The notes beneath the pieces were generated by a model. It searched no databases. It was not told where the DNA came from and was given only the letters and a program-made list of their open reading frames with translations. The position numbers were made by a program, and so were the translations under genes. Shown one piece after another: positions 20,539 to 60,640 of a stretch of DNA of 64,000 nucleotides; the first letter of the stretch is position 1, and each line of letters starts with the position of its first letter. Origin of the DNA: Flammulina velutipes (Eukaryota; Basidiomycota; Agaricomycetes; Agaricales; Physalacriaceae); NCBI GenBank assembly GCA_011800155.1, contig CM022378.1, positions 1,612,001 through 1,676,000 on the forward strand, read 5' to 3'.

Positions 20539-20728
20539 CTCTCGTGTATTGCTTCCTCGATTGTAATTTCTGTAATTTAAATGGCACATCTAACAACGGA
20601 CGTTTACGCGCTGATTATTGAATAACGCCAAGATAAAGAGCCCCAGATTATACAGCTCGACTTTCGGGATACATTTACTGACGTTTCTGTAAGAGCCCAA
20701 AGAACTTCCCCTTCTAGCGTCAAATATA
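20539..20728. repeat. Duplicated FET3 tail and tandem-duplication junction
   Basis: From about 20585 to 20715 this matches the sequence at 22610-22742, which is the 3' flank and last dozen codons of FET3 (reverse-strand 'KGKFFGLLQKRQ' plus stop). At about 20716 the match ends, some 13 bp of unrelated sequence follow, and from about 20729 the sequence matches the interior of gene A's second exon. This is the physical junction of the tandem duplication. Confidence 0.8.
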
Positions 20729-21649: not shown

Positions 21650-21835
21650 GGAGAGAGATGGTTGGTACAGGAGAACTGAAGGGACAGAGGACGGTTAAGT
21701 ATGCTTTCTGAGATCTAGACGATGATCGGGAAGAGAGAAAAAAGTGATGGAACACCCAATCACCGGAGTCACGGCCCGATGTATTATAAAATCAAACTTG
21801 ATTTGCTTAACACCACCACCGCCACCGTTCACAGC

Positions 21836-22536: not shown

Positions 22537-22699
22537 CTCTCGTGTATTGCTTCCTCGATTGTAATTTCTGTAATTTAAATGGCACATCTAATCATCATCA
22601 TCATCATCTAACAACGGACGTTTACGCGCTGATTATTGAATACCGAATAACGCCAAGATAAAGAGCCCCAGATTATACAGCTTGACTTTCAGGATACAT

Positions 22700-25092
22700 T
22701 TACTGACGTTTCTGTAAGAGCCCAAAGAACTTCCCCTTCTTCCCCTTCTCCTCCACTTGTTGTCTTACTTCATGTTCAATCTCCTCTTCCGTAAGATTCC
22801 CTCCCATTGAATACCATACTACAGCGATCATTCCCAGCACTGCCGACAGTACACATCTTGGACAAAGTTAGAAGGTGTTATCAAGAAATACAAACAATCG
22901 CACCCAAACATCGCACCAATGCCCTTAGGGCGCCATCCAAGTTTCTGGGGATACGGCCCACCACGTAAACCGCTGAGATCAGTCGTCGACGCATGCCCCG
23001 CAGCGTTCCCAGAAACTGGAACGTCCAAAGCCGCACAGTTGTCATACATCTTCTGAGGGACGTTGTTCCTCTCTTGAGCCAGGAGCGGGGCCTCGATGAG
23101 CTGTATGGCTAGTCCGACTTCCAAATGCCATTCGATATGACCTGTAAAAGTAAATGCGATTGTGAGGGACTGGTCAGATAGATAGCGTACAATGCATGAA
23201 CCACACCCCCGGGTTATCTGCCACGATACGCATCGTTGCGGATCCCATGGAAGATATATGGATAGTATCTCGCCGCATCGGGTTCAGCTGACCCTCGTCT
23301 ATGGGCGGATTAAGGGCGGGATCGTCAGAAGTGAAGTCCTCCGCTCGTCCCATGATCCAGAATTTGTGTCCATGTAAATGGCTACATAGAGTCAATCAAT
23401 AACTTTATCGAAGGCAAGGCTCGCACGCACAAAGGATGTTTACCCGCATCGCCATTCTTTACCACGATATCAAGTACGTCCATATGCTCGATCACGAAGC
23501 TATTGGGGCTATACGCCTCTTGGACGGTAGCATTGGAGCCGAGGGTCAAGGCGCTGAACACTGAAGGGACAATTGGGGTATTAAAGGTCACCATATTGAA
23601 CATCGCGTGATTAGTCCCATCGTCCATGGTATCGAAGAGGACTTCAAGCTCGATCGTCTTCGTCACTCGAGGAGGAGTAGATATTTCCATGGGCACCAAC
23701 CCCGTATCGTTGACGAGTGCGTACTCATCGACAAAGCCTAGGTCAGTCGTATCAGCAGAGTTCGAGTAGGTGATGGATGAGGTGACGTCTAAAGATGTTC
23801 GTTGTTAGATATGGATGGATAGTGACAAGGGCGAACGAACTGGGATTGAGTGCTGGTGGCACAGTGTCGAACATATCTGTATCCATATTGGCATGGATAG
23901 CCCAGTTTGCGTTGGTATCGTTACGTGCGGTGACGAGAACAGAATATCGTTGTGCCACAGTCAAGCTGATCAAGTCCACTGGGGACTCTTCGATGTCGGT
24001 CTAAAGGAAAATGTTTAGAATGAAGCCTAGAAACACATGTCATTGTGGCGTACCCCGTCAACCTCGATCTAGGGAACATATATTAGTAAGAGGTTGTGTT
24101 AAACGAATGAGATCTCACAATTCGCATATCATGTCCATCTATCCAGAAGAAGAACATAGCGAATGCGGACGTGTTGACCACCCTCAGACGGTAAGTCTTT
24201 CCCGCCTCAAATGGCAGAGTTGAATTCTCGTTGAAACCAACAGATCCCGTCGTAGTCGAGGTTCCGGATTTTGGGCCAAGATAAGCACCATCTTTAGCAA
24301 AGTAGACTAGGCCAGATTCTATAATGGGACGTCAAAACCTACATGATACTCGTGCTTCAGAGTGAAGCAACTTACCGGGTACTGGCTCGGCACCACCGGG
24401 GTTGGAGATGCTGATGAATTGGTCCAGGAGGACGGCATGCTCGTCGTGATACCAGTCTCCCAAAACCACAGTGAACTCTTCGTCGTAGTCATAAACCTCT
24501 GTCGGAGGGTGTAGTACGACCGGAGCACGTAGTCCGTCAACGTATTGGCCCTACACGAGGGCGTAAGTGGTGTGATGAAGAAGTAAAACAGATGGACCTA
24601 CGTGTGAATGGGCATGCACCCAATACGTTCCCCACTGACCTGATGTATCAACTGGCACAACATAGTCAAAGTTACCACCAGGAGGGATGCCACTAGTGGC
24701 GGTGTTAAGTGATTAGGACGGAGGATATAAATAAGAAGCCCACCATTCCGTTACTCCGATCGCACCATCCATCCACGACGACGAGTTGAAAAACATCCCA
24801 TGGTGATGAAGCGTCGCCGGCTTTTCCAGAGAGTTGGAAACATGCACCAGCAGCGAGTCGTTCGTGGAGACTTCGATGGGAGGTGGCCTAACAACATGCA
24901 AATTATTAGCCGCGCCGAGGTTGATGCGAGAAAAATAGAAAGCACGTACGGCCATGTCCCATTAACACCAATAGCTCGTCGGTCGAACAGACCATCTGGG
25001 TTGACGTTGTCGACGTAAGTTAGGTTCCACCATATTTCGTGAACACCAGCTAACGCTGGAGACACGAGTGCTAGTGCGAGCAAGGCTTCCAT
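22700..25092 (-). CDS. FET3: Fet3-type multicopper ferroxidase
   Basis: Eleven exons on the reverse strand give a complete Fet3. It has a signal peptide ('MEALLALALVSPALAG'), then 'TLHHHGMF', 'WVHAHSHGQYVDGLRAP', 'HPFHLHGHKFW' and 'FMHCHIEWHLEVG', the four copper-binding blocks. A C-terminal transmembrane helix ('VLSAVLGMIAVVWYSMGG') precedes a basic cytosolic tail ending 'FFGLLQKRQ'. The ferroxidase-specific residues correspond: Glu in 'GGAEPVPES' (yeast E185) and Asp in 'GDAGKHPF' (yeast D409). The enzyme oxidises Fe(II) to Fe(III) at the plasma membrane and hands it to Ftr1. It is divergent from FTR1, with starts 491 bp apart. Its last codons are duplicated at about 20700, in the neighbouring tandem repeat. 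Confidence 0.95.
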
Positions 25093-42826: not shown

Positions 42827-44701
42827 ATGTCGGAAGGACTAGTCAGTGTAGAGCTGGAGGCGCTCTCCAACTTTACTGCCAACGACGCCATTGTGAACGG
42901 TTTACATATCTCCAACGGGAGCGTCCCAGCAGAATTGGCAAGTCTGCTAGCAATTGTTTGTCGGGCACGGCGCCCTTCGTCGCCTGCTGTCAGTCCTTTC
43001 TCATCGTTCGATTTTAAACATCACACTCACTTACGACGCGTACTAGTCTTATATCCGCGATTCGACTATTCGCACCATCGAAGAAGCTGCATTCTTGATC
43101 AAAGAAGGGAACGCATGGAACATATTTGGAGAAGATGCAGACGCATATCCTGTTCGAACGAGTGACGAACTTGTTCATTACGACCGCCTTGGTACATTCA
43201 TCAGACTCACTTCTCTCTTGGCTGTCCCTCCAGCGGAAACCTTCAAATCAGGAAGTGTTGCCGCGCATTTCCATAGTCAAATCCAAAGCATCATCTCATG
43301 GGACTACGAAGGGGAACTGGAATTCGCTGTCGATGCCGCCTACCTCATTGACATGAAGATCGTCCATCCAGATGGTGACCCGGTTAAATATAGCATGAAG
43401 GGCGACTTCTTCGTTCGAACTTGCGACGAGAAAATACCCTTTCTTTTCGGTGGAGTCGACTCGAACTGTGATCTTGACGACAAGTTCCGAATGCTACTCT
43501 TGGTCTACAGCTTTATGAAACTATGGCGCTCGGTTGCTCTGCCATTCACCCTAACTCCATTGGCTATCTTCCTCGACAAGGAGCTCATCGCGGAAACCCA
43601 CATTTTTTATCTCGCTACCGACGCGGAGGTTAGTACTGTCTCATCCCCTACTGACCAGGTTTGACGATGAACAGATTCGATGTCACAGAATTGACTATGA
43701 CCTTAAATCGCACAAGAGTTTGGCACACTTTGTTCTCTTCCTCAGAAATTATCTGGACACCATGAAACCGCTCTGGACTGATCATGCAAAACTACAAAAA
43801 CTACGACAAGCGATAGATGCCGTACGGGTGGAGATAGGTCATCTGGTCTCACACAGAGTGTCTCTCAATGACGGCGAGGACGACAACGAGCCATCAGATG
43901 GAGGAATAGGTAGAATAGACTGTGATATCGCCAAGTTGGATACACCTACCGATACCTGGCAGCGTCTTCTAACGGTGAGCGCTCAACCGCAACAACATGA
44001 TGGAGGTTCAAATTATATCTCTCTAGAACCGCAGAGCAATTCTTGTCACAAAACAGAATAAACCTATTCTTGTCGCGAAGATTGTCGAAGAGGAAGAGTG
44101 GACTATCCTCAACAGACTGCAAGGCGTTCCCGGCGTAGTATCAATTACGCGTCACCACGCTCTACCGGACGACTTTCACCTCGTCCTGATGCCGTGGATG
44201 GGCTGTTCGATCGACGGCTACCTATACTTCACGAGGAACCCTTCTCCCGACTCGCGCCTTGTGGCCCTCTCGTTCCTCCGCTCCCTTTCACGCATCCATT
44301 CCCGCCGCATTGCGCACCTAGACCTCAAACTTACCAACGTCCGTGTTGCCATCGATGATGTTTCTGATGGCACGGTCAGCATTATCGACTTTGGACACAG
44401 TGCCATACTGGACAACGACAGCAATTTCATTGAAGGCGAGACGGGGACATATGGATGGAGCGCACCTGAAGTGATGTCTGGGGAACCTTACGATGCGTTC
44501 TTTGCGGATACCTGGTCGGCTGGTCGCATTATCAGTTACTACGCTGCTCATGGGCCTCCGCAGAGTGTGGATAAATGGCTGGAGGATCTTGGGCATGATA
44601 TGCAGGCGGAGGAGCCGAAGAACCGGACAGCACTTTCGACGGCGATCCGCTGTTTGGAGCTGGATGCTGAAAATCGGAGGGCAACGTATGCATCTCTCTA
44701 G
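42827..44701 (+). CDS. Protein-kinase-domain protein with N-terminal extension
   Basis: Exons 42827-42988, 43047-43628, 43675-43974 and 44027-44701 close to 572 residues. The N-terminal half is an unassigned domain ('YIRDSTIRTIEEAAFLIKEG', 'HFVLFLRNYLDTMKPLW'). The C-terminal 225 residues are a kinase: 'PILVAKIVEEEEWTIL' (beta-3 Lys), 'HLDLKLTNV' (catalytic loop, D and N present), 'IIDFGHSA' (DFG), 'YGWSAPEV' (APE). Histidine replaces nothing essential, but HRD is HLD. It looks catalytically competent. It is convergent with a PHO80-like cyclin gene at 45047, and both are copied in arm 2 of the inverted duplication, where the kinase domain is lost. Confidence 0.8.
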
Positions 44702-45046
44702 AGGTTTACATCGGCTCGGTATGAAATCATGCTAGGGGCTATTATGCGTCCTTAGCGGGAATCTGGCGGAAAAAGTTGGGTTTCCTGGTGCAGTGTGGTA
44801 TGGATATGGTATGTATTGTCAATCTTTGTTACTATAACTATTATGAATAACTCTCTCAGCGTATGTACTGAATCTTTGCGTCGCTCTGGACGACCCCTTC
44901 GATACCCCCTTCTCTCGACGGAGTTTCCTCCGATATCCCGGGAGGCTGCGCGTTGCGCCCAGTGGATCTCATTGTGCGAGTCCACGATGTCTGGCCACTG
45001 CTCTAACCCGTAATTCCATCTGCTCTAGTTCGGATCGGTCATGGTC
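44702..45046. other. Convergent 3' ends of kinase and cyclin genes
   Basis: 345 bp between two stop codons facing each other. It has a recognisable, diverged counterpart at 59676-60077 in the other arm ('GCGCAAGGCGCAGCCTCCCG'-type segment). Nothing coding. Confidence 0.5.
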
Positions 45047-45939
45047 TCACGCAGATATAGAGTGGGTGCGGAAATGGTGGCGTCCGGGTAAATGAAATGA
45101 TTTGACTAGTTTGTGCAAGGGCGAGAATCGCTTCGGCGGAGCCTCTGGCCAAGGGGATGATGGGGTTCGAGGGGACGGTGATTCGACTGAGGAAGTCGGA
45201 CTCGAGGGCACGAGTGCAGGTACTGGTGAGCGCGGTGCTACGGCTACGGCTGGTGCAGCACGAAGCGGTGGGACGGCGTACTGAGGGAGTGACCGAGGGA
45301 TAGATTTGGCCAAAATACGCGAACGCTGGATCAGGAGGTCTGCCTCGGATACGCTCAAGTCGTAGCCTAGCGCTGCGAGCATGTCTCTTTCGAGGGTATC
45401 GATGGACGATAGGGAGATGCCGCTGCACCAGGACCAATGGATGTTCTTCATGGAACAATCAACTAGATACTAAATGAATGATGATTAGCATGGAGATCGC
45501 AGCGAGCTCAGAGAGCGACAAACCTTTGTAGCGAGCATCACGGCCCCTAGGAAGACTCGTTCACGAGGACAGTCCTCGAAACGTATGTCGGCAAAGTAAC
45601 GCTTCGCTCTACTGACATAGACGAGTGCAGTGGTCAAGACTGGCATTGTGATCGATGCTCGGGTGAACACATTTGTGAAGAAATCATTGAGGAACATGTT
45701 CTCCATGTCGAAGAAAGGGACGGGAATATAGAATGGGTTTGAATGGGTGTTCAACGCGAATGCACCGTCCTTGAGGTAGTCTGGACAGGAGTCAGCCACG
45801 AAACAGAGTTGAAGGCGATGTACAACAAACCTATTATGATACTCAAATCATCATTCCGCATGAAATCGTCGAGCAGAGATGTATGCTTCGAAGCATCGAC
45901 GAGGGAAGCGGAGCGAGTTGCGATGGTAGTGGAAGACAT
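45047..45939 (-). CDS. PHO80/PCL-like cyclin, intact copy
   Basis: Exons 45939-45831, 45780-45524 and 45469-45047 (reverse strand) close to 262 residues. The cyclin core reads 'FFTNVFTRASITMPVLTTAL', 'YVSRAKRYF', 'CPRERVFLGAVMLATKYLVD', 'KNIHWSWCSGISL' and 'LERDMLAALGYDLSVSEADL', the layout of the Pcl/Pho80 family, which activate Pho85-type CDKs. The C-terminus is a Pro/Ser-rich tail with many SP sites, possible CDK targets. A near-identical inverted copy at 58785-59675 carries a frameshift. The upstream region 45940-46130 contains the unoccupied counterpart (45983/45984) of the retrotransposon insertion found in that copy. Confidence 0.85.
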
Positions 45940-46065
45940 GGTTGTGGTAAGTTGAGAAGGTGTGTTGATTGAAAATAAGGACTGCTGTGCCGCTTCTTAA
46001 AGACAATTGAAAGGAGCTAGTATTGATGATCGAGCCGCTAGACATGATTCACTTACAAGAGTTCA

Positions 46066-46649
46066 AGCACCTCATCCGTGGAGCCAAACAAGCTACCTCA
46101 GAAGGTAAATCGTATTCCTGCAGTCAATAAGTACTGACTCGTTCTGTCGTAACCTTGGAGAAGTATAAGGAAATTGACAGAATCACGTGGATGAGAATGG
46201 TTGCATGTAAAGATGCACGAGGGTGTGCAGTGGTTCTACCAGTTTCTTACAGCATCCCACGTCATGCATCGCGATCAAGAGGCGGTGTGGTGGACTTGCG
46301 CCACATTGCGAGACATCAATCGGCTATAATTACTTTAGGAGCTCAAGTCTCATCCGCGGGGACAAAGGATTTGTTCAATTTACTTCACATCGGAAGCTAA
46401 GCGTTAAGCTCTTCAATGGAAGACACATAACTTGAACTAGCTTAAGGTAAAGGATGACATATCTGAATAGACAAAAGTGGCGTCTTGTCGTTGACGATTG
46501 CTAAACTATTATATCATTCGTCATGTACGATGATCAAGAGGCAGTGTAATTGGCTAGCGCCACACATTGTCTCAGCATGAAGTACGTAGGTGTGGATGCG
46601 GAGACAGCCGGCCACTCTGAATACCACCACGCAAACTCAGAAATAATCT
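46066..46649. repeat. Inverted-duplication arm 1, promoter-distal part with GCGCCACA modules
   Basis: This stretch is the inverted counterpart of about 50790-51310. It contains two modules marked by 'GATCAAGAGGC(A/G)GTGT...GCGCCACA...TTG' near 46268-46306 and 46524-46561, spaced about 260 bp. The same module appears four times in the other arm. No coding content. Confidence 0.6.
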
Positions 46650-46957
46650 GTGTTTGTATGTACAGGAGAGATAACATCATGCGAGTAAGGTACACTGACT
46701 CTCTTGGATATCGCGAATGCACGGGCAACAAAGATAAGACTAGCATGTGTCGTAAATCAGTGACGGGCTGAACAATGAGAAGAGCTCACGGCAGGCGATA
46801 AAGGACGTCGCACACGACGAAGACGTGTCAACAAGTGCGTTAATTGAGTCGGAAGGTCCGTGTCGGAGATGCGTAAACCATTGGCAATAGCATCGTCGGC
46901 AGTAAACTATTGAGCCCACGCAACTCTATTGTCAGTGCCAGAAGACAACTCGCCATG
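46650..46957 (-). pseudogene. Fragment of the kinase gene's N-terminal exon
   Basis: The reverse strand matches the first exon and first intron of the kinase gene at 42827 ('ADDAIANGLRISDTD', 'RRVRRPLSPAVS' against 'ANDAIVNGLHISNGS', 'RARRPSSPAVS'). A one-base deletion after the first dozen codons breaks the frame, and nothing of the later exons is present. The ATG would be at 46957. Its inverted twin is at about 50470-50690. Confidence 0.65.
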
Positions 46958-48218: not shown

Positions 48219-49798
48219 ATGGCGAGGTAAGCATGTCTCCTGATCATTCCTTCAGTTTGTGCTCATCAGTTCTCAGCGTGTCTTGCTCGTTGATTGACCG
48301 GATTCTGGTTGATGATTGTTTTCTGGAAATCTTCCGCTTCGCAACTTCAGGTTGGGATACGAAGACATTATTCTCCATCTCCCAAGTCTCAAGCTACTGG
48401 AGGAACTTAGCCCTCGCGAACGCTTCCTTGTGGACCGAAGTATTTGTGGACGAGTCTTCAATCAACTATTCAGAACATGTCCGGGTTCGCAGGGCACCTC
48501 ACATCCCCCTACACTACCAGCTCTTTCCCCGAGTTCACATCATGCTCGAGCGCTCGAGAAATTGTCCCATCAGCGTTAAAATCGACATCCCCGTTGCCGA
48601 AAATGGGCAATCAGTGTTCCACCCCCGGGCTGGTCACCTTGCAAACCTTCTATACCCCCACCGTGGCCGCGTCGTCTTCTTCCATACAAAGAGCGCCCAT
48701 TGGGCTCATCACGTCGCCTTGGCGCAGATCTTCACTGGGGATTCCTTTCCCTTGCTCCGATCCATTTCCATCGAGTGTTGCTACAAATCCATTCGCCAGG
48801 AATCCTACGTAACGTTTCCTCCTGATATTCGTCGAGTCGAGCTCGGTCTTACGCGTTTCACGAATGCGGAAGACTCTGCCATCCCGACATTTCCCAATTT
48901 ACGGGACCTGTCGTTCCTCGGCACCCTCTGTGACTGGGGAAAATACCCCGGACGCAATCTTAGCACGATTACCCTCGCTAAGATCCCATTCGGCGAACGA
49001 CCTTCAATCGCACAACTGTGCTCCATACTCTCCATGAGCAAGAATACTCTTACAGTGCTGCAAATCCACGGATCACTGCCATACGAAGATAAGCACGGCG
49101 GCGTCATCGACGTTGTACTTCCGCACCTGGAGACTCTTTCCTTGTTTTACGCCATACCTGACGAGCTAGTTGTCTTCTTCAACCGCGTTCGAGTCCCCGC
49201 CCTCAAGAAACTGGACATTCGGAACCTCAATATTGAAGTACCTCTTGGGCCGGTTGCGTTGGCGGTCTACGCGGAGACGTTGACGGCCTTCGAGAGCATG
49301 ACGCGCCGCCTTCCCCTCGAACAGATTGAGCATTTGAGGTTGGGTGGTCTGTTACTAGGATCTCCGCCGAGGTTACCGGAGGGAGTGGTTGCCACTATAG
49401 ATCTCCTACCTGCCCCATTCCAGTTCATCCAGCGACTCCAGATGACGCAGGTCGTGCAGCTTAACGATCCTGGGAGGTACCTGCTGTCGGCTGCCTGTTA
49501 TCCGGCTGTGGGGAGGCCACTCAGTGTTGTGCTGCCGAATGTGCAGAGGTTCGTGTTGACGGCTGGAGATGACGACGGCGCGATGAATGTGAGGGCTTTT
49601 TTGAATGTTCGCTGGGGGCTTCAAATAAAGCCGTGGAGCGAGATGGAGATTTCCGTTCCAGCGTCTATGATACAGAGATTCCGTGCTTCTCCCATGTGTA
49701 TGGATATGAGCAGGTGGACTCGTGTGGTGTTTAAACATCTCGTTGACCCGGCGAAGGATCAGGTCTTTGAGTATGGGTCGAAAGATATGGATCATTAG
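48219..49798 (+). CDS. F-box protein, paralogue 3
   Basis: An 8-nt first exon (48219-48226, ATGGCGAG), a 50-bp intron (48227-48276) and one long exon to 49798 give 509 residues. The F-box reads 'LIDRILVDDCFLEIFRFATS...LFSISQVSSYWRNLALANASLW'. LRR-like segments follow: 'FPLLRSISIECCY', 'FPNLRDLSFLGTLCDWGKYP', 'LPHLETLSLFYAIPDELVVF' and 'VPALKKLDIRNLN'. It is closest to paralogue 1 along its whole length, including the end ('RVVFKHLVDPAKD' against 'RVVFRHATNPDED'). It sits in the spacer of the inverted duplication. Predicted SCF adaptor; target unknown. Confidence 0.8.
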
Positions 49799-50099
49799 AC
49801 TATTTACTTAGTTCATTGGTTATGATGTCTTGTATATAAATCAATCTCATGTATCCTAGGCATGCAATTCGCACGCTGGTAGGAACACGATCTGGCCATC
49901 GACGTGGAAGACTTCCAACCACTTTCCGCAAAATGTGGCGCACCGCCAGGTTGGCATTTGACTCCGACCAAAAAGAAAACAACCGTTGAGATCCGAAGCA
50001 GCGCAAGCTGGACTATGATTTTGTCTCCTTTCCAAATAATGATAAAGTCAATACACAAACCACACATGACACAGTGTGCTTCTGGCATTGTGCTTGTCA

Positions 50100-51130
50100 T
50101 TTAGAGTGTCATGCCGAGATATGTGGCGCAATCTCATTACACTGCCTCTTGATCATCGTACATGACATGGGATACAGTAACGTCTTGTAAAGATTGTCAA
50201 CGACCGACCGCCATGTTCGCAGAAATGCCGTCCTTCTCTTTTAAGCTTTTTTCAAGTTATGACAGGACATCTGTATTTTATTGAAGATCTTAGCGCTTAG
50301 CTTCCGATGTGAAGTAAATTGAACAAATTCTTTGGCCCCGCGGAGGAGACTTGAGCTCCTAAAGTATTTATAGTCGATTGATGTCTCGCGGTGTGGCGCA
50401 ATTCTTTTGTACTGCCTCTTCAACACGATGTATGACGTGGGATGGCGTTAGAGACTATTGTAATCGCTTTACGTTGCTGCCGACGATGCTATTGCCAATG
50501 GTTTACGCATCTCCGACACGAACGTTCCGACTCAATTAATGCACTTATTGACACGTCTTCGTCGTGTGCGACGTCCTTTATCGCCTGCCGTGAGCTCTTC
50601 TCGTTGTTCAGCCTGTCGCTGATTTATGACACATGCTAGTCTTATCTTTGTTGCCCGTACATTCGCGATATCCAAGAGAGTCAGTGTACCTTACTTGCAT
50701 GATGTTATCTCTCCTGTACATACAAACACATATTATTTCTGAGTTTGCGTGGTAGTATTCAGAGTGGCCGGCTGTCTCCGCATCCACACCTACGTACTTC
50801 ATGCTGAGACAATATGTGGCGCTAGCCGATTACACTGCCTCTTGATCATCGTACATGTCATGAGATATAGTGTCGTCCTATGTAGATTGTCACCGACCGA
50901 CCGTCATGTTCTGCAGAAATACCATCCTTCTCTTTTAAGCTTTTCTCAAGTTGAAACAGAACAGCTCTGTAGTTGTTGAAGACTTTAGATTCCGACATAA
51001 ACTAAATTGAACAAATTCTTTGGCCCCGCGGATGAGACTTGAGCTCCTAAAGTAATTATAGCCGAGTCATGTCTCGCAATGTGGCGCAAGTCCACCACAC
51101 CGCCTCTTGATCGCGATGCATGACGTGGCT
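50100..51130. repeat. Four GTGGCGC modules in arm 2
   Basis: Conserved modules centred near 50122, 50395, 50817 and 51080 share 'TGTGGCGC(A/T)A', followed by a cytosine-rich 'CTGCCTCTTGATCATCG'-type segment. Between the modules are repeated blocks including 'CCTTCTCTTTTAAGCTTTT' and 'ATTCTTTGGCCCCGCGGA'. Two full units (about 50105-50410 and 50800-51095) align along about 290 bp. Arm 1 holds only part of this array. Confidence 0.6.
50470..50690 (+). pseudogene. Second fragment of the kinase gene's N-terminal exon
   Basis: Reads 'ADDAIANGLRISDTN', 'RRVRRPLSPAVS' and continues into the matching intron, as in the fragment at 46650-46957 but in opposite orientation. No later kinase exons follow. 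It is one of four places in the window carrying this exon. Confidence 0.65.
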
Positions 51131-51239
51131 GGTAGAACCACTGCACACCTTCGTGCATCTTTACATGCAACCATTTTCATCCACGTGATCCTATCAATTT
51201 CCTTATACTTCTCCAAGGTTACGACAGAACGAGTCAGTA

Positions 51240-51387
51240 CTTATTGACTGCATGAATACGATTTACCTTCTGAGGTAGCTTGTTTGGCTCCACGGATGAG
51301 GTGCTTGAACTCCTATAAGTGAATCATGTCTCGCGGCTCGATCATCAATATTAGCTCCTTTGAATTGTCTTTAAGAAGGGGTACAGC
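51240..51387 (+). promoter_or_regulatory. Distal promoter of cyclin copy 2, severed by the retrotransposon
   Basis: The sequence from 'TTATTGACTGCA' to 'TTGTCTTTAAGAAGGGG' matches the region upstream of the intact cyclin copy (46130-45984, reverse strand) base for base with few differences, then stops at C51387 where the retroelement starts. The match resumes at A58741. Confidence 0.8.
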
Positions 51388-51569
51388 TTTCTCGCCGGCT
51401 TCTTACGTCGGTAGCGCTCGAACTCGATTTGCTTCCAACAACGACTGACATTCAACAGGACCTATCTACAGGTAGTGGGGAAGGGGAACTACGGGTATCC
51501 AGCTCCTGGCAGGAAACCCGTTGAGACCCTGGGGTGAGACTTCGAACGTAAACCATCTAAGACAACCCA
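51388..51569 (-). repeat. Split direct repeat B2 (element 3' end)
   Basis: 182 bp, from 'TTTCTCGCCGGCTTC' to 'CTAAGACAACCCA' on the + strand. It matches B1 (51857-52038) throughout by eye. Its outer edge at 51388 is the element's boundary with host sequence. Confidence 0.9.
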
Positions 51570-51672
51570 TGTATGGTACTTCGAAGACTCTGTAGACAGA
51601 TATTGTTAATGATCAGTAGTTCTGTGGACTTAGTTAATATCTCGGAGTTTAATTGTGGTTGGGGTGGGTGGG

Positions 51673-51856
51673 GAAAAGAAAGAAAGACGGCTGGTACAGC
51701 CCAGTCAGTCGAGGCTCGCGACACGAATCGCCTTTTCGCGATGATGGTTCCGAGCAAGAATCAAGGAAGCCACGAGTTCGATCACGTGACTACAGACGCG
51801 TCGAGAAACTGCGCCACTGTTCCTTCCGATCCAGCCAACCTCTCCAGTGGCTTTAT
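51673..51856 (-). repeat. Split direct repeat A2
   Basis: 184 bp, + strand 'GAAAAGAAAGAAAGACGG' to 'CAGTGGCTTTAT'. It matches A1 (58557-58740) throughout by eye and abuts B1 without spacer. Confidence 0.9.
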
Positions 51857-52038
51857 TTTCTCGCCGGCTTCTTACGTCGGTAGCGCTCGAACTCGATTTG
51901 CTTCCAACAACGACTGACATTCAACAGGACCTATCTACAGGTAGTGGGGAAGGGGAACTACGGGTATCCAGCTCCTGGCAGGAAACCCGTTGAGACCCTG
52001 GGGTGAGACTTCGAACGTAAACCATCTAAGACAACCCA
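51857..52038 (-). repeat. Split direct repeat B1
   Basis: 182 bp matching B2 (51388-51569). It lies between the 3' end of the recombinase gene and A2. Confidence 0.9.
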
Positions 52039-52111
52039 AAATGAGCTTCGGCGCGTCTAGATGGTATCGGAGACAAACCCAAAAGAGCTACGCTCTAGCC
52101 GAGAGCGATTG

Positions 52112-53185
52112 CTAACCCACTATCCTGACGTTCCTGTTCTTCTTGGATCTCGACTTCTTCTCGTCGAGCAGCTCGACGTGTAGAACTCCGAGCTTTTCCA
52201 AGTGGCGCCAGTATGCGAGGAAAGCGTCCGACGACCACCTCCCCATCGCCTTTACCACCTCTGTGTCCACTCCGGCGAGCAGAAAGTACGTGGTACCTCC
52301 AATGCGGAAGGAGTGGCCAGTAACTCTCCCGAAACCTGCTGCTTCCCAAATCTGGTTGCATCGCTTCAGGAATGCCTTCTTCGTGAGGACTTTCCTCTCG
52401 CCTGACGGCAGGAGGTACGACGCAAGTGGTGTGTCCGCTGTTATCCGGTTGGTGCCGACGTGTAGGCATTTCGCGTCAACTGGGTCGTCGCTTCCTCCTT
52501 GTTTGCACAGGCTGACGTCTTCACCGTTGACTTGTTCCGTCTTGGTTTTGGGTAAGTGGAGGGTGAAGGAGCCATGAGGGGAGAATGCGGGGTGGATGTC
52601 CTTTCCAGTGGGGAAGGAGGTGGGGTCGAAGACGTCGACTCTGCTGTTTGTTGGCAGAATCTCTCCTAGCCTGATCTGCCCCATGAAACCGCTATTGGCA
52701 TGGAATTTTACCGAAACGTCGAAACCCTGCGTGGTATCCAGCCCCGCGTTCAACGCTTCCAGCATCTCCTTCGTAATCGGTCTTCTCTTCCCTTTCCTCG
52801 AGGTAGCTGGCGTCGCCTTGACGAGCCCTTTCAGCGTCTGCTTGAGTAGGTTTCCTGACGCGTAGTGGTAGTTGTACTGGATATGGAAGGCTCGTACACC
52901 ATGTAGCTTGGCTCCGATCGTCGAGCCCGCCACCTTGCCTTTGAATGTATTGGCGAAGTTGCATAGAGTAGTTTCGCGTGCAGGGAACCAGTCCTTCTCT
53001 GGTAGGTTGATCTCTCGAAGATAGTGAATGAACTGCCTGAGTCCTTTCTTGTGCTGGTTCGTCGTGCTCTTGGCCCAAGATTCGCGGATCGTGTCCGACG
53101 TCGTCCTTAGAAGCTTGAACGGCGTCTCTTGGTACTGCTCCTGAGAGTGCTGGGCACGACGGTAGACAAATTTGGACCTGGCCAT
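52112..53185 (-). CDS. Tyrosine recombinase of the retrotransposon
   Basis: A 357-residue single open frame. A helical N-terminal core-binding domain ('TTNQHKKGLRQFIHYLREIN') is followed by the catalytic domain with the tyrosine-recombinase residues: Arg in 'MGQIRLGEILP', Lys in 'LHLPKTKTEQ', the His-x-x-Arg box 'GHSFRIGGTTYFLLAGV', Trp in 'MGRWSSDAF' and the nucleophile Tyr in 'LAYWRHL'. All appear present, so the enzyme is predicted active. It would integrate a circular cDNA copy by strand exchange. It is separated from the RT gene by 90 bp and has no visible intron. Confidence 0.9.
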   Translation of the reverse strand: MARSKFVYRRAQHSQEQYQETPFKLLRTTSDTIRESWAKSTTNQHKKGLRQFIHYLREINLPEKDWFPARETTLCNFANTFKGKVAGSTIGAKLHGVRAFHIQYNYHYASGNLLKQTLKGLVKATPATSRKGKRRPITKEMLEALNAGLDTTQGFDVSVKFHANSGFMGQIRLGEILPTNSRVDVFDPTSFPTGKDIHPAFSPHGSFTLHLPKTKTEQVNGEDVSLCKQGGSDDPVDAKCLHVGTNRITADTPLASYLLPSGERKVLTKKAFLKRCNQIWEAAGFGRVTGHSFRIGGTTYFLLAGVDTEVVKAMGRWSSDAFLAYWRHLEKLGVLHVELLDEKKSRSKKNRNVRIVG

Positions 53186-53275
53186 GGTGATAGTAAGAGG
53201 GAGAGCGTAGTTTCCTCTTTAGGAAATCGCAGTCCAGCCTGCTCAAGACTTCTGAGTATCTATTTATTCGGGTAT

Positions 53276-55170
53276 CTACTGTTTATTTACTCTAGGGTCT
53301 TGAGGCGAAACGTGCTCGTTTACGAAAGGTTTTAAATGCTGCGGAATACTGGGAGGGTGACCAAAAATGTCCTTTTTCGGTCCAAACTCTCCTCTCGAGG
53401 GCGCGTCTGCCAGATTGTCCTTCGTCGAAATCCAATCCACTGTGAGCCATATCTTGCTCTGCTGCATCAGCGCGACTATCTGGCGCAGGATGGCATTCTG
53501 TGGCGACCCTTTTGAGTGGCCTGCTCTCAGCGCGCCTACCACTCCCTGGTTATCCGACCGCAAACGTATATGGCAGTCAGCGAATCCTGCAGCGATGAGG
53601 GCGCGAAGCGTCAGCTCGATGACGACCATCTCCGCCCATCCTATCTCTCTCCCTTCGGTTTTCCAACCCTTCTTGAACTCCCATGCTAGCCATTTTCCGT
53701 CTAGGATAAAGCCCATGCCCCAGCCCGTCGAGGCGTCTACCATGAGACTCATGTCTAAGGCCTCCTTGAGTTCGACGCACTCAATGCCTACGAACTCTTT
53801 TCGGAGCTCTTGCGTCCACCAGGTTACGTCTTCCCGGAGCGGGGCGGTGACTTTGTGTTTGGTGAATCGTGAAGAGGTGTTCTTGAAGGAGGCGCGGAAT
53901 TTATAGAGTTCTGTCATGCGCGACCTGCCGTGCGGGACTACGAGGCAGACGTGGTTGAGGGTTCCGATGAGGGACTCGGTTTTGTCTAGCGCCATCTTGT
54001 TTTCTGAGGTCCACGGTGCCAACTTCCCAAGGTACTTCTCTTTCTTCTCTTGAGGGAGTTCGACCGTCTTGTTCGCTAGAGACCAGAAGAAACCGATATA
54101 GGTGAAAGCGGTTGCGAAGGGCACGAATTTTGAGGGGGCCCACGGCCAGCCTAGCTCTTTCGCCGTGTTCCAGATAAGGGATTCGTCGTAACTGAAAATG
54201 TTGGTGCCGTCCGCTGCTTTTCCCTTCGGATACCTAAAGAAGACGAAATCGTCTACCCATTTGATGAGTGCTTCTACGCCTCGAAACAAGAGGATGGCGA
54301 CCATAGCGTCTGCGATGCGTCCCCAGATTCCTGGCGCTGGGGAGGCCCCGAAGTTCAAACATGCGTCGAGGTGGATGAGGAAGCCGAGGAGTATGGCAGT
54401 GAAAACTCGAACCGACGGGTGGGTGGGAACGTTTCTAAATGCTCCTTCCACGTCGAAAACGGCTGCCTCGGTGCCGGGAGGGGCTCCCGCTACCAGTAAA
54501 TAGCATTCCGAGAAAGTTCCCCATTGGCACTGGAACTTCTTTGAGTCAATAACGTCGTTGATTGAGGTCGTTTCGGGATCAATGGGAATGAGGTCCTCGG
54601 GTTTCGGGTCGTAATTTTCGACTGAGTAAAGGGAATCGGGCGGTGAGAATGAGGAAAGATCAATGCAATTTTCAGTGTTTCTAGGGTATGAGTGGTTGAC
54701 GATGACTCGGAGTTTTCCTGGTCTCGTTTCTGCTACGCTGAGAGGCGCCGTTCTGAACGGGCCTTATTTTCAGTTAGATAGGTTTCGTCGACCGAAAAAA
54801 ACCCAATGCTCCTCACCGATAAGGGATTCCAAGAATGCTGGTTCATAACCAGGTGAGAGTCTGCAAGCTGCTATTTCTTCTCCGTATTTCTTCTGGAGGA
54901 ACTGATGGTGCGACGGGTCTTTGTAATGATTCTCTGGAGTAAACGTTTTTGTAAGCCTGAAATTTTCGAGGCCCATGAAGAAGCCGTGTTCGATGCCTAC
55001 GTGCCACCATCCATGAGTGACACACTCCTTACGGATGAGGAATACTCACCAATAGGAATGTCCGCATACTGTTTGAGGACGCCTGCGTCCCGCAACGCTT
55101 CCCGCCACACCGCATGCCTGAAGGGGGTGACGATCGGGAAGAGCTCGCTCCTAAGCGTGTTCTTGAGCAT
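53276..55170 (-). CDS. Reverse transcriptase-RNase H of the retrotransposon
   Basis: Exons 55170-55050, 54996-54817 and 54762-53276 (reverse strand) close to 595 residues. RT motifs: 'AAVFDVEGAFRNVPTHP' (first catalytic Asp), 'ASPAPGIWGRIADAMV' and 'KWVDDFVFF' (DD pair; Trp stands where Tyr is common). RNase H: 'LMVDASTGWGMGFIL', 'GWAEMVVIEL', 'RLRSDNQGVVGAL' and 'STKDNLADAPSR' supply the D-E-D-D set. No methyltransferase domain is seen after RNase H, as expected for Ngaro/PAT rather than DIRS1. The two introns (54997-55049 and 54763-54816) have clean GT-AG ends; without splicing the protein would stop early. The start overlaps the Gag stop by 20 nt in another frame. Confidence 0.85.
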
Positions 55171-58100
55171 TGTGACTTCCCGTGCCGCACCTCGAGCACT
55201 TATGCTCGAATCGGCAGTTGGGGCCAGCACGCGTGCAGACTTTGCTCGTCCCGTTCCACTGATGGCAATAAGAGCGGCCGTCTTTGTCGAACCACTGCTT
55301 TCCCTCTTTCCTGTTGAGCCAGGCGGGGACCGTGATGTCACAATCGTAGATCTTGTGCTCGCGGGAGCCACAACGAATGCACTTGTCGCCGGAGGTACCA
55401 CCAGTTTTGGCGCCTTGCCTAGAGTTTCCCGAGCGCGAATCGCGGCGGGAATCTTGGCGGGAGTCTCGCGAAGATTGGCCAGAGCGAAAGGAGTCCGATG
55501 GAGTTCCTCCCGACCTCTGCTGGTGCGACGGTATCTTTTTCTGCATGGCGGCGATCTCCGCTTTGAGGTCAAGCTGCGATTTCTTGATAGCCTCATTCTC
55601 CCGTTTCGCGTGGACGTCGCTGATACTCGAAAGGGAGGCCCAGTCGACCGGGGAGGTCCACAGCTTCTCCAGCCATGTCCATTCCCTCCGACCGGCGTCG
55701 TATTCCCTGATCGCTGCGAAGTTGTTCTGCCAGTCCGAACGACTCTTCAGACTGTCGAAGTGTGTTTCGAGGTCGTCGATATACGCTGCCGTGAGCTCTG
55801 GAGATGCTAAGCAAAGGTGCTCCTTGAGGGTTTTCACAAAACGGCTGGAGCTGTCGATCCATTGGTCGAGTGTAAGGTCCCTCTCGTTACGGGAGCGGTA
55901 GGCCATTTTGCTGCCTCCGCCCACCTTGACGACGATACCCTCCGCAAGAGTGTGCTCCCTCTGCGTCTTGGCTCCAAAGCCCGCACTTCGAGCTTCCTCT
56001 GCGGCCTCCTTTGTGAAACCCCAGAGCGAAGGGTACTCCTTCAGACCTTTCTGGAGATTCGCGATCTCACCCTGCGGGGGCTTGATGTCCAGAGGCAAAA
56101 AGGTGCGTCGAGCTCCGATCCCGAAGACTCGTGGGGCATTCTCCATTCCGATGGCCTCGCTCAGACTGAGGGGGCCGTCAACTCCTTCCTCTGGACCAAA
56201 AACGTCCGAGGTTAAATCTCTGTACAGCCTGGTCTCCCAGCGCTTGAACGCGCGAACTTCGTCGCTGACTGCGTTCGGCGGGTATAGGGAGCGGATGGAC
56301 ATCCGTGTCTTGTAGTCGATGTGGGCGGCTCCAGCGGCGCGCTGTGCGGGTCGAGTGGCGCTCGTGTCCGGCATCAGCCCGGGAGCGGTCCCCATGCCCT
56401 GCCCAAAGGTCTCCTGGGAACGCGGGGGAACGACCCCACCTTGTGCGGGAAGCCATCGCGAGGGCAGCCCAGCATGATAAAGGTCTCTGAGTGTGCGTGG
56501 GAGCCCAGGGGAGAGGGAGGCAGCTGCCGCATAGGAAGGGCGGCGGCTGCGACGCTCAGTAGCGTTAGCCGCTGGAGGTTGTTTCTCCTCCTTGGGCGGA
56601 TACGGCGTGGGGGCAGCACTCCGACGCCCTGTGGAAATGACTGCCGGGGAGAGCAGACTCTCCGCCCTGCGGACAGAGTCCTGGTAACGGCTATGAGCCG
56701 AGGAAGCAGGTGTGTCCGGGTGAATACAGCCCGGGCGAGTGGGGTTCCACGCGTCAAACCAATCCGTCATGGAGTGGATGGACGACAGTGGGGGCTGAGA
56801 CCCACCACCTTCCGTCGCTGGGGTGCGCGCGCAGGGCGCTGCTGCGCTCACCGGCGTGGGCGGGATCTCCTTGGTCCTCTGAGACGAGACCGGGATAGCC
56901 AGCGCAGGCGCCGACGCGGGGGCTGGGGTCGCCACCGACTTGGATCCTTTGGACAGGCGCGCGGTCTCCCTGAGCGCAGGTGTAGAGGGGTTGAGCCCAC
57001 CAGCTGACGCCGATGGGACACCCGTACGCCTACCCCCAGAGGGCCCGTTGGTCACCCGTTCCGCTAGGATATCCACGTCTGAGCGGATCTCCTCTAAGAT
57101 CTTCCCCGCCTGCTTGTGCGACTTTCGGAGGAGACCAACGTCTACCTCCAAACCATGGGCACTGTGCTTGTCCACATAGGCAACAACCTCTTCACCTGAA
57201 GAGGGAAAAAACTCCGTCAGCTCTGACTTCGCACCGAAGAGAGGAGAACAAGGAGGGGAGAAGGCGACGCCACACGCGCACGACTCAGAAAAACTGCTCC
57301 CTCCGCACCACATGCGGAGAGGAGGTGCTCGGGTGCCACACACCACGAGCGGCGCCACACGCCAAAACAGGGTAACCGTCCGGTGGAACACACCGTCCGG
57401 CAGCGCCACACGCTTCCGCGCTCTCCTGGTGCCACACACCAGAAGAAAGGTAGAAAAAAAAGGGTACTCACCAACTTTAACAAAGCACTCTGTGGCCCAC
57501 AGGGCATCGTGCGCTGCGAGGAGGAGGACAGCAACCTGCTCCTCCCTACCCATCGCCTTCCCAAACTGGACCTTGACGTCCGCGTTCAGGGCATCGACCT
57601 CGGCTTGCCACGCAGTGCGCTTGGTCCGATAGTCGGCCAGCATCCCAGCGACAATCTTCGCAGGGGGAAAGGGATCAGCAGCTGGAGAGGCCATGCCGAC
57701 CGACGGAGGAGGATTCCAACCTCGAGGGCCAGGAGGGGGGCTCTGGGCCACCTCCTTGCTCTTTCCCTTCTCTGCAGCAGGAATGCGCGAGGAGAGCCCA
57801 GCGCTGGAAGGAGTGCGCTGGGTGGCGGGGCGCTTGGCGCGGCCCGCAGAGGGGAGTTGAGACGCCTGACGCTTGCGGTCGTGTGGCGCCGCCGCCGGGG
57901 TCTGTCCGAGGAACTCGTCAAGCTGCGCCTTGAAGACGCCGCCAGCCCCCCCGCTGGAAACGGGGGAGGAGACGAGGGAAAAAGACCCGTCGACCTCCGA
58001 GCCTGGGCGACCGGGCGTGGAAATGACACCTTCTGAGTGGGCGGGAGTCATCTTTGCTGTCGGACGCGCCACAGGGCTGGGCGCGAAACCGGACGCGAGA

Positions 58101-58510
58101 AGAGGGTGCGTAGGTGACGTGGCCCGTGCGCGGCTGGCAGGGGTCCTAGCCGCGGGACCCGAGGAACCGGGAACCGACGTCTTGGGTGTTGGGTGCGACC
58201 TGGGCACCACGCCCGGCGTCGCAGTGCTCTTGCCCGACGAACTCGAAGGGCGGGCGACGGGAGGCAACTGGGCGAGAATGGGGGATAGCCGAAAAGCGTT
58301 GGGATCGACCTGATTGGGTACCGAGGAGGGCGGGGGCATGGCCCGCGCGTCGACGAACTCGAGCGCAGTAGGGCGCGACGTTCTTCCCGGGTCAGGTAGC
58401 GAATGCGATGCAGAATTCGACTGGAGGGGGGCAAGGGACCCCTCGGGCTCGTGGGCGTGATTGGCGCCGCCCCGAGCGTAGCGACCATTACGGGTTCGCA
58501 ACGTGCTCAT
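55151..58510 (-). CDS. Gag-like protein of the retrotransposon
   Basis: The frame is open for 1119 codons. It contains a likely 276-bp intron (57196-57471, GTGAGT...CTTCAG), in frame and stop-free, whose removal gives 1027 residues and joins 'ECFVKVG' to 'EEVVAYVDKH'. The N-terminal half is Pro/Ser/Ala-rich and disordered. The middle is helical and capsid-like ('VRAFKRWETRLYRDL', 'FVKTLKEHLCLASPELTAAY'). The C-terminus carries a CCHC zinc knuckle ('CIRCGSREHKIYDC') and a second Cys/His cluster ('CRFEHKCSRCGTGSHN'). It would package the element's RNA. GC content and codon choice are higher than in the host genes around it. Confidence 0.85.
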   Translation of the reverse strand: MSTLRTRNGRYARGGANHAHEPEGSLAPLQSNSASHSLPDPGRTSRPTALEFVDARAMPPPSSVPNQVDPNAFRLSPILAQLPPVARPSSSSGKSTATPGVVPRSHPTPKTSVPGSSGPAARTPASRARATSPTHPLLASGFAPSPVARPTAKMTPAHSEGVISTPGRPGSEVDGSFSLVSSPVSSGGAGGVFKAQLDEFLGQTPAAAPHDRKRQASQLPSAGRAKRPATQRTPSSAGLSSRIPAAEKGKSKEVAQSPPPGPRGWNPPPSVGMASPAADPFPPAKIVAGMLADYRTKRTAWQAEVDALNADVKVQFGKAMGREEQVAVLLLAAHDALWATECFVKVGEYPFFSTFLLVCGTRRARKRVALPDGVFHRTVTLFWRVAPLVVCGTRAPPLRMWCGGSSFSESCACGVAFSPPCSPLFGAKSELTEFFPSSGEEVVAYVDKHSAHGLEVDVGLLRKSHKQAGKILEEIRSDVDILAERVTNGPSGGRRTGVPSASAGGLNPSTPALRETARLSKGSKSVATPAPASAPALAIPVSSQRTKEIPPTPVSAAAPCARTPATEGGGSQPPLSSIHSMTDWFDAWNPTRPGCIHPDTPASSAHSRYQDSVRRAESLLSPAVISTGRRSAAPTPYPPKEEKQPPAANATERRSRRPSYAAAASLSPGLPRTLRDLYHAGLPSRWLPAQGGVVPPRSQETFGQGMGTAPGLMPDTSATRPAQRAAGAAHIDYKTRMSIRSLYPPNAVSDEVRAFKRWETRLYRDLTSDVFGPEEGVDGPLSLSEAIGMENAPRVFGIGARRTFLPLDIKPPQGEIANLQKGLKEYPSLWGFTKEAAEEARSAGFGAKTQREHTLAEGIVVKVGGGSKMAYRSRNERDLTLDQWIDSSSRFVKTLKEHLCLASPELTAAYIDDLETHFDSLKSRSDWQNNFAAIREYDAGRREWTWLEKLWTSPVDWASLSSISDVHAKRENEAIKKSQLDLKAEIAAMQKKIPSHQQRSGGTPSDSFRSGQSSRDSRQDSRRDSRSGNSRQGAKTGGTSGDKCIRCGSREHKIYDCDITVPAWLNRKEGKQWFDKDGRSYCHQWNGTSKVCTRAGPNCRFEHKCSRCGTGSHNAQEHA

Positions 58511-58556
58511 GACGAGTCGGAAAAGCTGGGAACGAGTGGCGATAGCCTTCGACGAC

Positions 58557-58740
58557 GAAAAGAAAGAAAGACGGCTGGTACAGCCCAGTCAGTCGAGGCT
58601 CGCGACACGAATCGCCTTTTCGCGATGATGGTTCCGAGCAAGAATCAAGGAAGCCACGAGTTCGATCACGTGACTACAGACGCGTCGAGAAACTGCGCCA
58701 CTGTTCCTTCCGATCCAGCCAACCTCTCCAGTGGCTTTAT
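58557..58740 (-). repeat. Split direct repeat A1 (element 5' end)
   Basis: 184 bp matching A2 (51673-51856). Its outer edge at T58740 is followed directly by host sequence AGTCCTTATT, which resumes the interrupted cyclin promoter. Confidence 0.9.
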
Positions 58741-58784
58741 AGTCCTTATTTTCAATCAATCCACCTTCTCAACTTACCAAAACC

Positions 58785-59675
58785 ATGTCTTCCACTACCA
58801 TTGCAACTCGCTCCGCTTCCCTCGTCGATGCTTCAAAGCATACATCTCTACTCGACGAGTTCATGCGCAATGATGATTTGAGCATCATAACAGGTTTGTT
58901 GTACATTGCCCTCAACTGCGTTTCCTGGCTGACTCCTATCCAGATTTTCTCAAGGACGGGGCATTCGCCTTGAACACCCATCCAAACCCATTCTATATTC
59001 CCGTCCCTTTCTTCGACATGGAGAACATGTTCCTCAAATGATTTCTTCACAAATGTGTTCACCCGAGCATCGATCACAATGCCAGTCTTGACCACCGCAC
59101 TCGTCTATGTCAGTAGAGCGAAGCGTTACTTTGCCGACATACGTTTCGAGGACTGTCCTCGTGAAAGAGTCTTCCTAGGGGCCGTGATGCTCGCTACAAA
59201 GGTTTGTCGCTCTCTGAGCTCGCTGCGATCTCCATGCTAATCATCATTCATTTAGTATCTAGTTGATTGTTCCATGAAGAACATCCATTGGTCCTGGTGC
59301 AGCGGCATATCCCTATCATCCCTTGATTCCCTCGAAAGAGACATGCTCGCCGCGCTAGGCTATGACTTGAGCGTATCCGAGGCAGACCTCCTTACCCAGC
59401 GTTCGCGCATTTTGGCCAAATCCATCCCTCGGTCACTCCCGCAATACGCTGTCCCACCGCTTCGTGCCGCACCAGCGGTAATAGCACCGCGCTTGCCAGT
59501 ACCTGCGCTCGTACCCTCGAGCCCGACTTCCTCAGTCGAATCACCATCCCCTCGAACGCCATCATCCCCATGGCCAGAGGCTCCGCCGAGGCGATCGTCA
59601 CCTTTCCACAAACTAGTCAAATCATTTCATTTACCCGGTCGCCACCATTTCCGCACCCACTCTGTATATGTGTGA
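58785..59675 (+). pseudogene. PHO80/PCL-like cyclin, inverted copy with frameshift
   Basis: Inverted duplicate of 45047-45939 with the same three exons. Exon 1 and the first intron match. In exon 2, 'DMENMFLK' is followed at once by a stop because an extra A lies in the run at about 59036-59038 (CTCAAATG against CTCAATG in the intact copy). The remaining cyclin core and Pro/Ser-rich tail stay open in the original frame and are nearly identical to the intact copy. Together with the retroelement 44 bp upstream of its ATG, this copy is probably dead. It must have been frameshifted recently. Confidence 0.85.
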
Positions 59676-60077
59676 GATTACGCCCGTTCTGAACCAGAGG
59701 ATCTGGAATTACGGTTAGAGCACAGGCCAAATACCGTGGCTATACAAACAGGACTCACACAATGAGATCCACCGGGCGCAAGGCGCAGCCTCCCGAATTA
59801 TTGGAGGAAGGAGACTCCGTCAACAGAAAGGGCACGGAGGGGTCACCCAGAGCGACGTCGAGATTCAGTACATACGGCTGAGAATGTTATTCGCAGTAAT
59901 TATAAATTCAGAGCGAAATAATACATATAAACATCACACCTTCAGCACCGAGAAATCCAAAGTATCCCGTCTCAAGACTCGGAATGTTCGCCACCAAGAT
60001 TATAGACATACCCCCCGGTGTATGGACAGAAATCTCTAGACAGACACAGTAGTCGCACTCCGGTCTTCAACATCGAG
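59676..60077. other. Diverged copy of the convergent intergenic region
   Basis: Counterpart of 44702-45046 in inverted orientation, with partial similarity only and no coding content. Confidence 0.45.
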
Positions 60078-60640
60078 CTATAAACTACGAATCACCGCCG
60101 AAAGTGCTGTCCGGTGCATAGGCTTCTCCGCCTGCATATCTTGTCCAAGCTTCTCCTCGTCGTCCTCGAGAGACGCTACCTTGTGTGACACCAGATCGCC
60201 TATCTCCAACCGTACCGCATCTATCGCTTGTCGTAGTTTTTGCAGACTTGAATGGTCAGTCCAGAGCGGTTTCATAGTGTCCAGATAATTCCTAAGGAAG
60301 AGAATAAAATGCGCCAATCTCTTGTGCGATTTAAGGTCGTAGTCAATTCTGTGGCATCCAGTTTGAACATAAAACTATGCCCCGTAATTTAGTAAAATGC
60401 TGGAAGAAAAAGAAGAAACACACTGTAGGAGATAGTAAAAGGCGTCGAACGCGCCGAAGACTTCTTAATAGGCTCGCTAATATTGCTGGAACATCCGAAT
60501 TGAAAATATGTAACCCATTGGCAGTGACATCGTTGAAGGAGAAGCCGTTGAGCGTCTCCAACCGTATAGTGACCAGTTCTCACGACATGACTGTACAAAT
60601 AAAGTGTGAGACTCTCAAGTCCAAACACATGGCCAAACAA
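60078..60640 (-). pseudogene. Kinase gene copy in arm 2, lacking the kinase domain
   Basis: Remnants of the gene at 42827-44701 in inverted orientation. The N-terminal exon ('FNDVTANGLHIFNSDVP', about 60440-60560) is present but exon 2 is gone. Exon 3 is retained ('AHFILFLRNYLDTMKPLW', 'LRQAIDAVRLEIGDLVSH') and then jumps straight to the last residues ('LGQDMQAEKPMHRTALSAVI'), deleting the whole catalytic core (VAK to APE). A poly-A/T-like run ('CFFFFFQ', about 60400) sits at the exon 1 end. Confidence 0.75.

Follow-up and report, generated by a model that had tools for sequence, protein, structure and literature searches.

The 64,000-nucleotide stretch of Flammulina velutipes DNA analysed here (contig CM022378.1, positions 1,612,001 to 1,676,000; hereafter the window) carries a tyrosine recombinase (YR) retrotransposon whose closest described counterparts are the Ngaro elements of the Agaricomycotina, a group divided into four clades in which most elements are incomplete and most families are genome-specific (Muszewska et al. 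2013, PMC3783388). The Ngaros of these Basidiomycota are described there with an A-pol-B-A-B order, with reverse transcriptase (RT), RNase H and YR but no methyltransferase, and with a YR frame that may be separate from pol. The Ngaros of Cafeteria burkhardae show an A1-[open reading frames (ORFs)]-B1A2B2 layout with Gag, RT/RNase H and YR, include variants that lack ORF1 and occur alongside isolated repeat remnants (PMC8547959). Somewhat further away, DIRS1-like elements also combine a YR with an internally stored circle junction and integrate without target-site duplication, and the DIRS1 model requires circle junction and target to be identical over 3 bp (PMC3266345). Penelope-like elements belong to a different class, characterized by a GIY-YIG endonuclease, and their ORFs can carry spliceosomal introns through retrotransposition, for which either an unspliced RNA or an antisense template has been discussed (PMC3846280).

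Against this background, the minus strand of the window holds, at 51388-58740, a complete YR retrotransposon of 7353 bp, which we read with very little doubt as a recently inserted Ngaro-type element of an agaricomycete-like fungus that would replicate along the lines set out below. Its parts are those of an ordinary Ngaro, and its points of interest are the retention of introns in pol and an empty twin of its target site that shows the insertion to be flush. The features on which the argument rests, in the order of the element, are as follows.

58557..58740, minus strand: A1 repeat, 184 bp, 5' end of the element, identical to A2
55151..58510, minus strand: ORF1, Gag-like protein (open frame of 1145 amino acids from 58588, first ATG at 58510)
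57196..57471, minus strand: possible gag intron, 276 nt (a multiple of three), GTGAGT...CAG, with splice-like ends
55050..55170, minus strand: pol exon 1, sharing 20 nt with the end of gag from its first ATG onwards
54997..55049, minus strand: predicted pol intron 1, 53 nt, GTGAGT...TAG (frame and splice sites)
54817..54996, minus strand: pol exon 2 (frame and splice sites)
54763..54816, minus strand: predicted pol intron 2, 54 nt, GTGAGG...CTAAC...AAG, the CTAAC being branch-point-like (frame, splice sites and relatives)
53276..54762, minus strand: pol exon 3, RT and RNase H (conserved catalytic residues, Foldseek matches)
52112..53185, minus strand: ORF3, YR (PF00589, catalytic residues, Foldseek match to Cre)
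51857..52038, minus strand: B1 repeat, 182 bp, identical to B2
51673..51856, minus strand: A2 repeat, 184 bp, identical to A1
51570..51672, minus strand: spacer between A2 and B2 with a C-rich motif at its start (compared across seven elements)
51388..51569, minus strand: B2 repeat, 182 bp, 3' end of the element, identical to B1
45023..46400, minus strand: empty twin of the insertion site, an inverted duplicate of both flanks, junction at 45983/45984

The order A1-Gag-RT/RNase H-YR-B1-A2-spacer-B2 is the one that the initial annotation had claimed, together with equal-length identical repeat pairs, and base-by-base alignment bears out both: the A copies agree at 184/184 positions and the B copies at 182/182, without gaps. 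B1 directly adjoins A2, a boundary presumed to be an internal copy of the circle junction, and a 103-bp spacer separates A2 from B2. Identity over 366 bp in two interleaved repeat pairs is not a matter of chance. The identification as a split-direct-repeat YR retrotransposon with exact coordinates is confirmed, and inverted repeats of at least 25 nt (seed 12) were absent from 50000-60500. The inner end of A1 is a pyrimidine-rich tract, which probably marks a promoter or upstream region and would place the start of transcription there. Near the boundary of A2 and spacer, an exact CCCACC is found in six of the seven elements compared, with a variant in the element at locus L053; since some of these elements are closely related, the counts do not amount to seven independent cases. 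A self-priming hairpin between the C-rich start of the spacer and the GGGT/GGTT-like starts of several B repeats was considered and rejected, as folding six elements yielded no common structure, and the motif is kept as a primary-sequence feature. The GC content of the element (57.4%, as against 49.4% in the remainder of the window) was likewise set aside as uninformative on horizontal arrival, given that four of five other measured elements also exceed their flanks, the one at L055 being the exception.

The proteins agree with the layout. Gag has no Pfam match; its C-terminus shows, on reading by eye, CCHC and CCCH-like zinc motifs, and tblastn places relatives of it at two other loci of the genome (L047 and L048), with weaker ones at L050, L051, L053 and L055. 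In an alignment with 17 relatives, the RT/RNase H residues D104, D172, D343, E378, D404 and D453 are invariant and D171 is present in at least 90%; for the YR, aligned with 17 relatives as well, the same holds for K226, H302, R305, W328 and Y336 (invariant) and for R183 (at least 90%). The R-K-H-R-W-Y set is what we take to be the catalytic signature of these recombinases, and the roles of the RT and YR motif residues are assigned on the same assumption. The predicted YR structure (mean predicted local distance difference test score, pLDDT, 83.9) finds its best Foldseek match in Cre (E 2.7e-9, TM 0.59/0.67), and the RT/RNase H model (mean pLDDT 77.6) matches the RTs of XMRV, MMLV and Ty3 with probability 1.00 and low TM; the RT matched NCBIfam weakly and far below the cut-off only, and matched none of the PDB sequences. 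Relatives in protein databases at E <= 0.001 number 246 for the RT, in a search that scored only the 7991 candidates sharing most words, and 421 for the YR. The species named among the best 120 listed for each, such as Lentinula, Tricholomella and Mycena, are presumably all agaricomycetes. The YR lies on the same strand as pol, and no methyltransferase was matched by Pfam in the three scanned frames, nor is there room for one, because pol continues for only some 40 residues beyond the last catalytic position of RNase H and its stop lies some 90 nt ahead of the start codon of the YR. The element has full coding capacity.

The recency of the insertion, which the initial annotation had seen as suggested by the perfect repeats, is upheld independently of them by the empty twin of the target site on the same contig. 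Both flanks match an inverted duplicate, the right one (58741-59699) at 93% and the left one (beginning at about 50985 and ending at 51387) at 92%, and the two matches abut at C13:1657983/1657984, that is, at the twin junction in window coordinates. The alignment of the joined flanks with the duplicate spans 1379 columns (1273 identities, 19 gap positions) and crosses the joint itself with no gap, no duplication and no deletion, the element sitting flush between its flanks. The placement of the insertion is unambiguous, because the element does not end with the base that precedes the insertion point, nor does it begin with the base that follows that point. Ngaro elements are not known to create a target-site duplication, and comparison with the twin reveals none here. 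If the twin is taken as the pre-insertion state, the number of bases shared at the joint is zero; the locus therefore departs from a strict DIRS1 model with an identical 3-bp core, although a mismatched core resolved after heteroduplex formation could give the same product. We also rejected a homology-guided choice of target: an 8-base word common to target and circle junction was sought post hoc, lies 9 bases out of register and has its like at 28 of 4000 random sites. As the repeats differ at 0/366 positions and the flanks match at 1273/1379, the insertion is probably much younger than the duplication. An empty site at base level is thus available for this element, while none is given in the passages on the Cafeteria Ngaros (PMC8547959). 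A second empty site was sought with the flanks of two further elements of the genome, L051 and L055: the B2-side flank of L051 has a 77% relative on contig C7, its opposite flank had no other match, and for L055 the matches of the flank were short only.

The duplication that comprises the twin extends, in inverted orientation, over 43679-46905 versus 50474-51387 / 58741-60358 at 85-88% identity; a weakly cyclin-like gene occurs twice in it, and the element is confined to one of the two duplicates. The first ATG of the neighbouring copy of that gene lies 44 bp from A1, and its cyclin match (PF08613, E 0.031) is below the cut-off.

The Flammulina velutipes genome (38.1 Mb, 23 contigs) contains at least 12 matches to the YR and at least 21 to the RT. 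As regards further genomic copies, for which the initial annotation had proposed to look, a DNA search returned one full copy of the window family, which is a lower bound; six more elements of the same layout emerged, the copy numbers of their families being judged only from searches with the window proteins. Five of nine loci (L047, L051, L053, L054 and L055) present the full layout. A sixth element, on C5 (L048/L049), has its YR gene split by about 48.6 kb and still preserves A1 and A2 at 175/175; the insert (C5:582110-630750), which has at its borders direct repeats of some 1.74 kb with 99.4% identity and TG...CA ends, is probably a large or nested long terminal repeat (LTR) retrotransposon, judging from its two ends only. 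In contrast to the mostly incomplete elements of the Agaricomycotina survey (PMC3783388), the seven elements considered here keep both repeat pairs, and their 14 pairs accumulate only 5 mismatches and 2 gaps in 2781 columns, a count biased towards identity, since similarity was the means by which the pairs were detected. In the stretch of L050 examined no repeats were seen, and L052 retains an A remnant only. The RT of the window differs from those of L047 and L048 by a nonsynonymous divergence (dN) of 0.12 each with synonymous sites saturated, and L047 and L048 are separated by a synonymous divergence (dS) of 2.6, a pattern that indicates strong purifying selection on the RT lineages. In a tree of 25 RT rows, made up of sequences from this genome and 10 homologues only, the window element groups with L047, L048 and the database homologue P0001 (100/100), with long-branch warnings elsewhere. 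The lineages are old, and their present copies look young.

Several observations weigh against the interpretation put forward here. The TM of the RT fold match to the query is low (0.33-0.37 for the eight top hits), the RT model has low confidence at residues 1-54, 56-78 and 110-146, Pfam gave no match for the RT, and the PF00589 match of the YR (E 1.7e-4) falls under the curated cut-off. The single full copy of the window family recovered by DNA search, even as a lower bound, is odd for an active copy-and-paste element; the recent insertion, the splicing and the circle are all predicted here from DNA sequence; and gene conversion could likewise keep repeats identical. This last point leads to the best-surviving alternative, in which the element is an old, fixed Ngaro copy whose repeats were homogenized by conversion instead of by recent reverse transcription. 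Families that look low-copy and yet exhibit near-identical repeats in all seven elements would fit such a scenario, as would the extra identical A-spacer-B unit of L055, which suggests that the repeats recombine; still, every element would need conversion of both A and B, the window element has open coding frames and the twin locus is empty, and we regard the scenario as unlikely. Even less probable is that the twin is a site of precise excision and not the pre-insertion state. In principle, circle excision is within the reach of a tyrosine recombinase, but this would require insertion before the duplication followed by scarless loss in one copy, and the absence of any difference between the repeats contrasts with the roughly 8% divergence of the duplicated flanks.

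The class assignment rests on repeat layout, gene content and YR orientation, the RT tree being limited to the rows mentioned above. Split direct repeats in the order A1-ORFs-B1-A2-B2, catalytic residues of RT and RNase H, a YR co-oriented with pol, no methyltransferase and no target-site duplication are all Ngaro features, whereas the methyltransferase of PAT and DIRS1 elements, and the inverted terminal repeats with an internal complementary region (ICR) of DIRS1, were not found. The initial suggestion of a PAT/Ngaro element on the basis of layout and missing methyltransferase is hence supported, and Ngaro is favoured because no methyltransferase fits. A PAT or DIRS1-type identity has very little to commend it: PAT elements also possess split direct repeats, and a derived PAT lineage that lost its methyltransferase is on record (PMC4157794), so that the methyltransferase argument is not absolute, but the repeats are direct and not inverted, the interval between RNase H and YR is too short and the YR runs with pol. 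Direct repeats, the missing methyltransferase and the lack of the 3-bp identity set the element apart from DIRS1 (PMC3266345), while its fungal host, the absence of virophage targets and an intron-split pol distinguish it from the Cafeteria Ngaros (PMC8547959). A Ty3/Gypsy-like LTR retrotransposon with rearranged repeats, suggested by the resemblance of the RT/RNase H to retroviral and Ty3 enzymes, can be practically dismissed in view of the YR, the interleaved A-B-A-B layout and the lack of a target-site duplication.

Three open genes with their catalytic residues had initially been proposed, and this holds for the residues and for Gag and YR, while pol opens only without two introns. Its open RT/RNase H frame of 495 amino acids lacks the first 100 or so residues, which lie in two upstream exons; reading straight through 55150-54764 meets in-frame stops, and removal of the two introns restores a single frame of 595 amino acids, so that both are predicted to need removal for the RT gene to be expressed. 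Across five elements (the window and L047, L048, L050 and L051, respectively 72%, 78%, 53-57% and 55-58% identical to it over pol), position 2 is occupied at the same codon and phase in 5/5 and position 1 in 3/5 (window, L047 and L048). L050 and L051, which lack the latter, are the only ones interrupted at a third position, and the inserts begin with GT and end with AG. Among the 120 listed RT relatives, a motif scan at position 2 gave 58 continuous proteins, 4 that begin there or close by and 58 for which the motif rule produced no usable match. On reading, P0002, placed in the last group, also runs through position 2, as P0004 and P0010 do through both positions, and the sequence of P0001, which at 82% is the nearest relative, begins at position 2. 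The predicted exon joints are borne out by homologous proteins reading continuously across them. Metagenome protein predictions are usually unspliced, and because many of the homologues come from this kind of source (jgi, lgn, ena), the continuous ones listed would appear to lack the introns, although spliced gene models may underlie NCBI entries such as P0010. The 1145-amino-acid Gag frame may contain a third intron, of 276 nt; on reading by eye, the gag of L048 changes frame close to the corresponding point and has a comparable 3' splice site there, no 5' site having been recognized, and L053 has a splice-like interruption at a different place.

The survival of introns in recently moved lineages indicates that the copied RNA is probably unspliced or antisense. 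In the replication model that we propose, transcription would start at the boundary of A1 and body and end near that of spacer and B2, yielding an RNA (body-B1-A2-spacer) devoid of either terminus; A would correspond to the part upstream of the RNA start, as its terminal pyrimidine tract suggests, and B to the part downstream of the RNA 3' end. Some transcripts would be spliced to provide RT/RNase H and the unspliced one reverse-transcribed, the internal B1A2 serving as a stored copy of the joined ends to generate a circle with a B2-A1 junction, which the Cre-like YR would recombine with the target without creating a duplication. We lean, if only slightly, towards the broader proposition that a Ngaro clade has kept spliceosomal introns in its RT gene through many rounds of retrotransposition, with at least one position shared across RTs about 55-60% identical and apparently intronless relatives in existence, that the copied RNA escapes splicing as unspliced sense RNA or through an antisense template, and that the recombinase joins circle to target without a shared core base. 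Goodwin and Poulter (2004) reportedly may mention introns in fungal elements, and for this reason we make no claim to a first report. Among the papers listed in literature searches, no title or abstract opening dealt with introns of YR retrotransposons, the Penelope study (PMC3846280) excepted, and a term search of the main text of PMC3783388 did not find 'intron' or 'splic'. Penelope-like elements parallel the present case in carrying introns through retrotransposition, but here the introns lie in the pol of a YR retrotransposon; if the proposition is true, the escape from splicing so far stressed for Penelope elements extends to Ngaro. The retention of pol introns constrains which RNA serves as template, and the locus joins it to a base-resolved empty site and to several long-separated lineages with almost identical repeats, a combination that renders the model (which RNA, which junction, what core) testable. 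The empty inverted twin, the pol introns and the six further elements of the same layout in this genome are new here.

Some variants of these elements deserve mention in their own right. L055 (2108-8992) harbours an extra tandem unit, A1-ORFs-B-A-spacer-B-A-spacer-B, with all copies identical, which would reflect either unequal crossing-over or an assembly effect. On the minus strand of L047 (1665-6622), a Gag without its N-terminal 800 or so residues is joined shortly after an A1 identical to A2, in a manner that resembles the ORF1-less variants of Cafeteria burkhardae (PMC8547959). Solitary A remnants, with no B repeat detected, are found in the window at 10825-10979 (85%) and in L052 at 2693-2864 (90%), and both stop some 16-22 nt short of the inner A end. 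Four very similar RT copies (L031, L032, L033 and L034; end branches 0-0.08), with no YR match listed at their loci, fall far from the Ngaro RTs. The window itself looks duplication-rich, with additional direct and inverted duplicated stretches of 68-88% identity at 18533-22740, 7002-10664 and 30273-31953/48116-49792, one of which includes an F-box-like gene (48233-49798).

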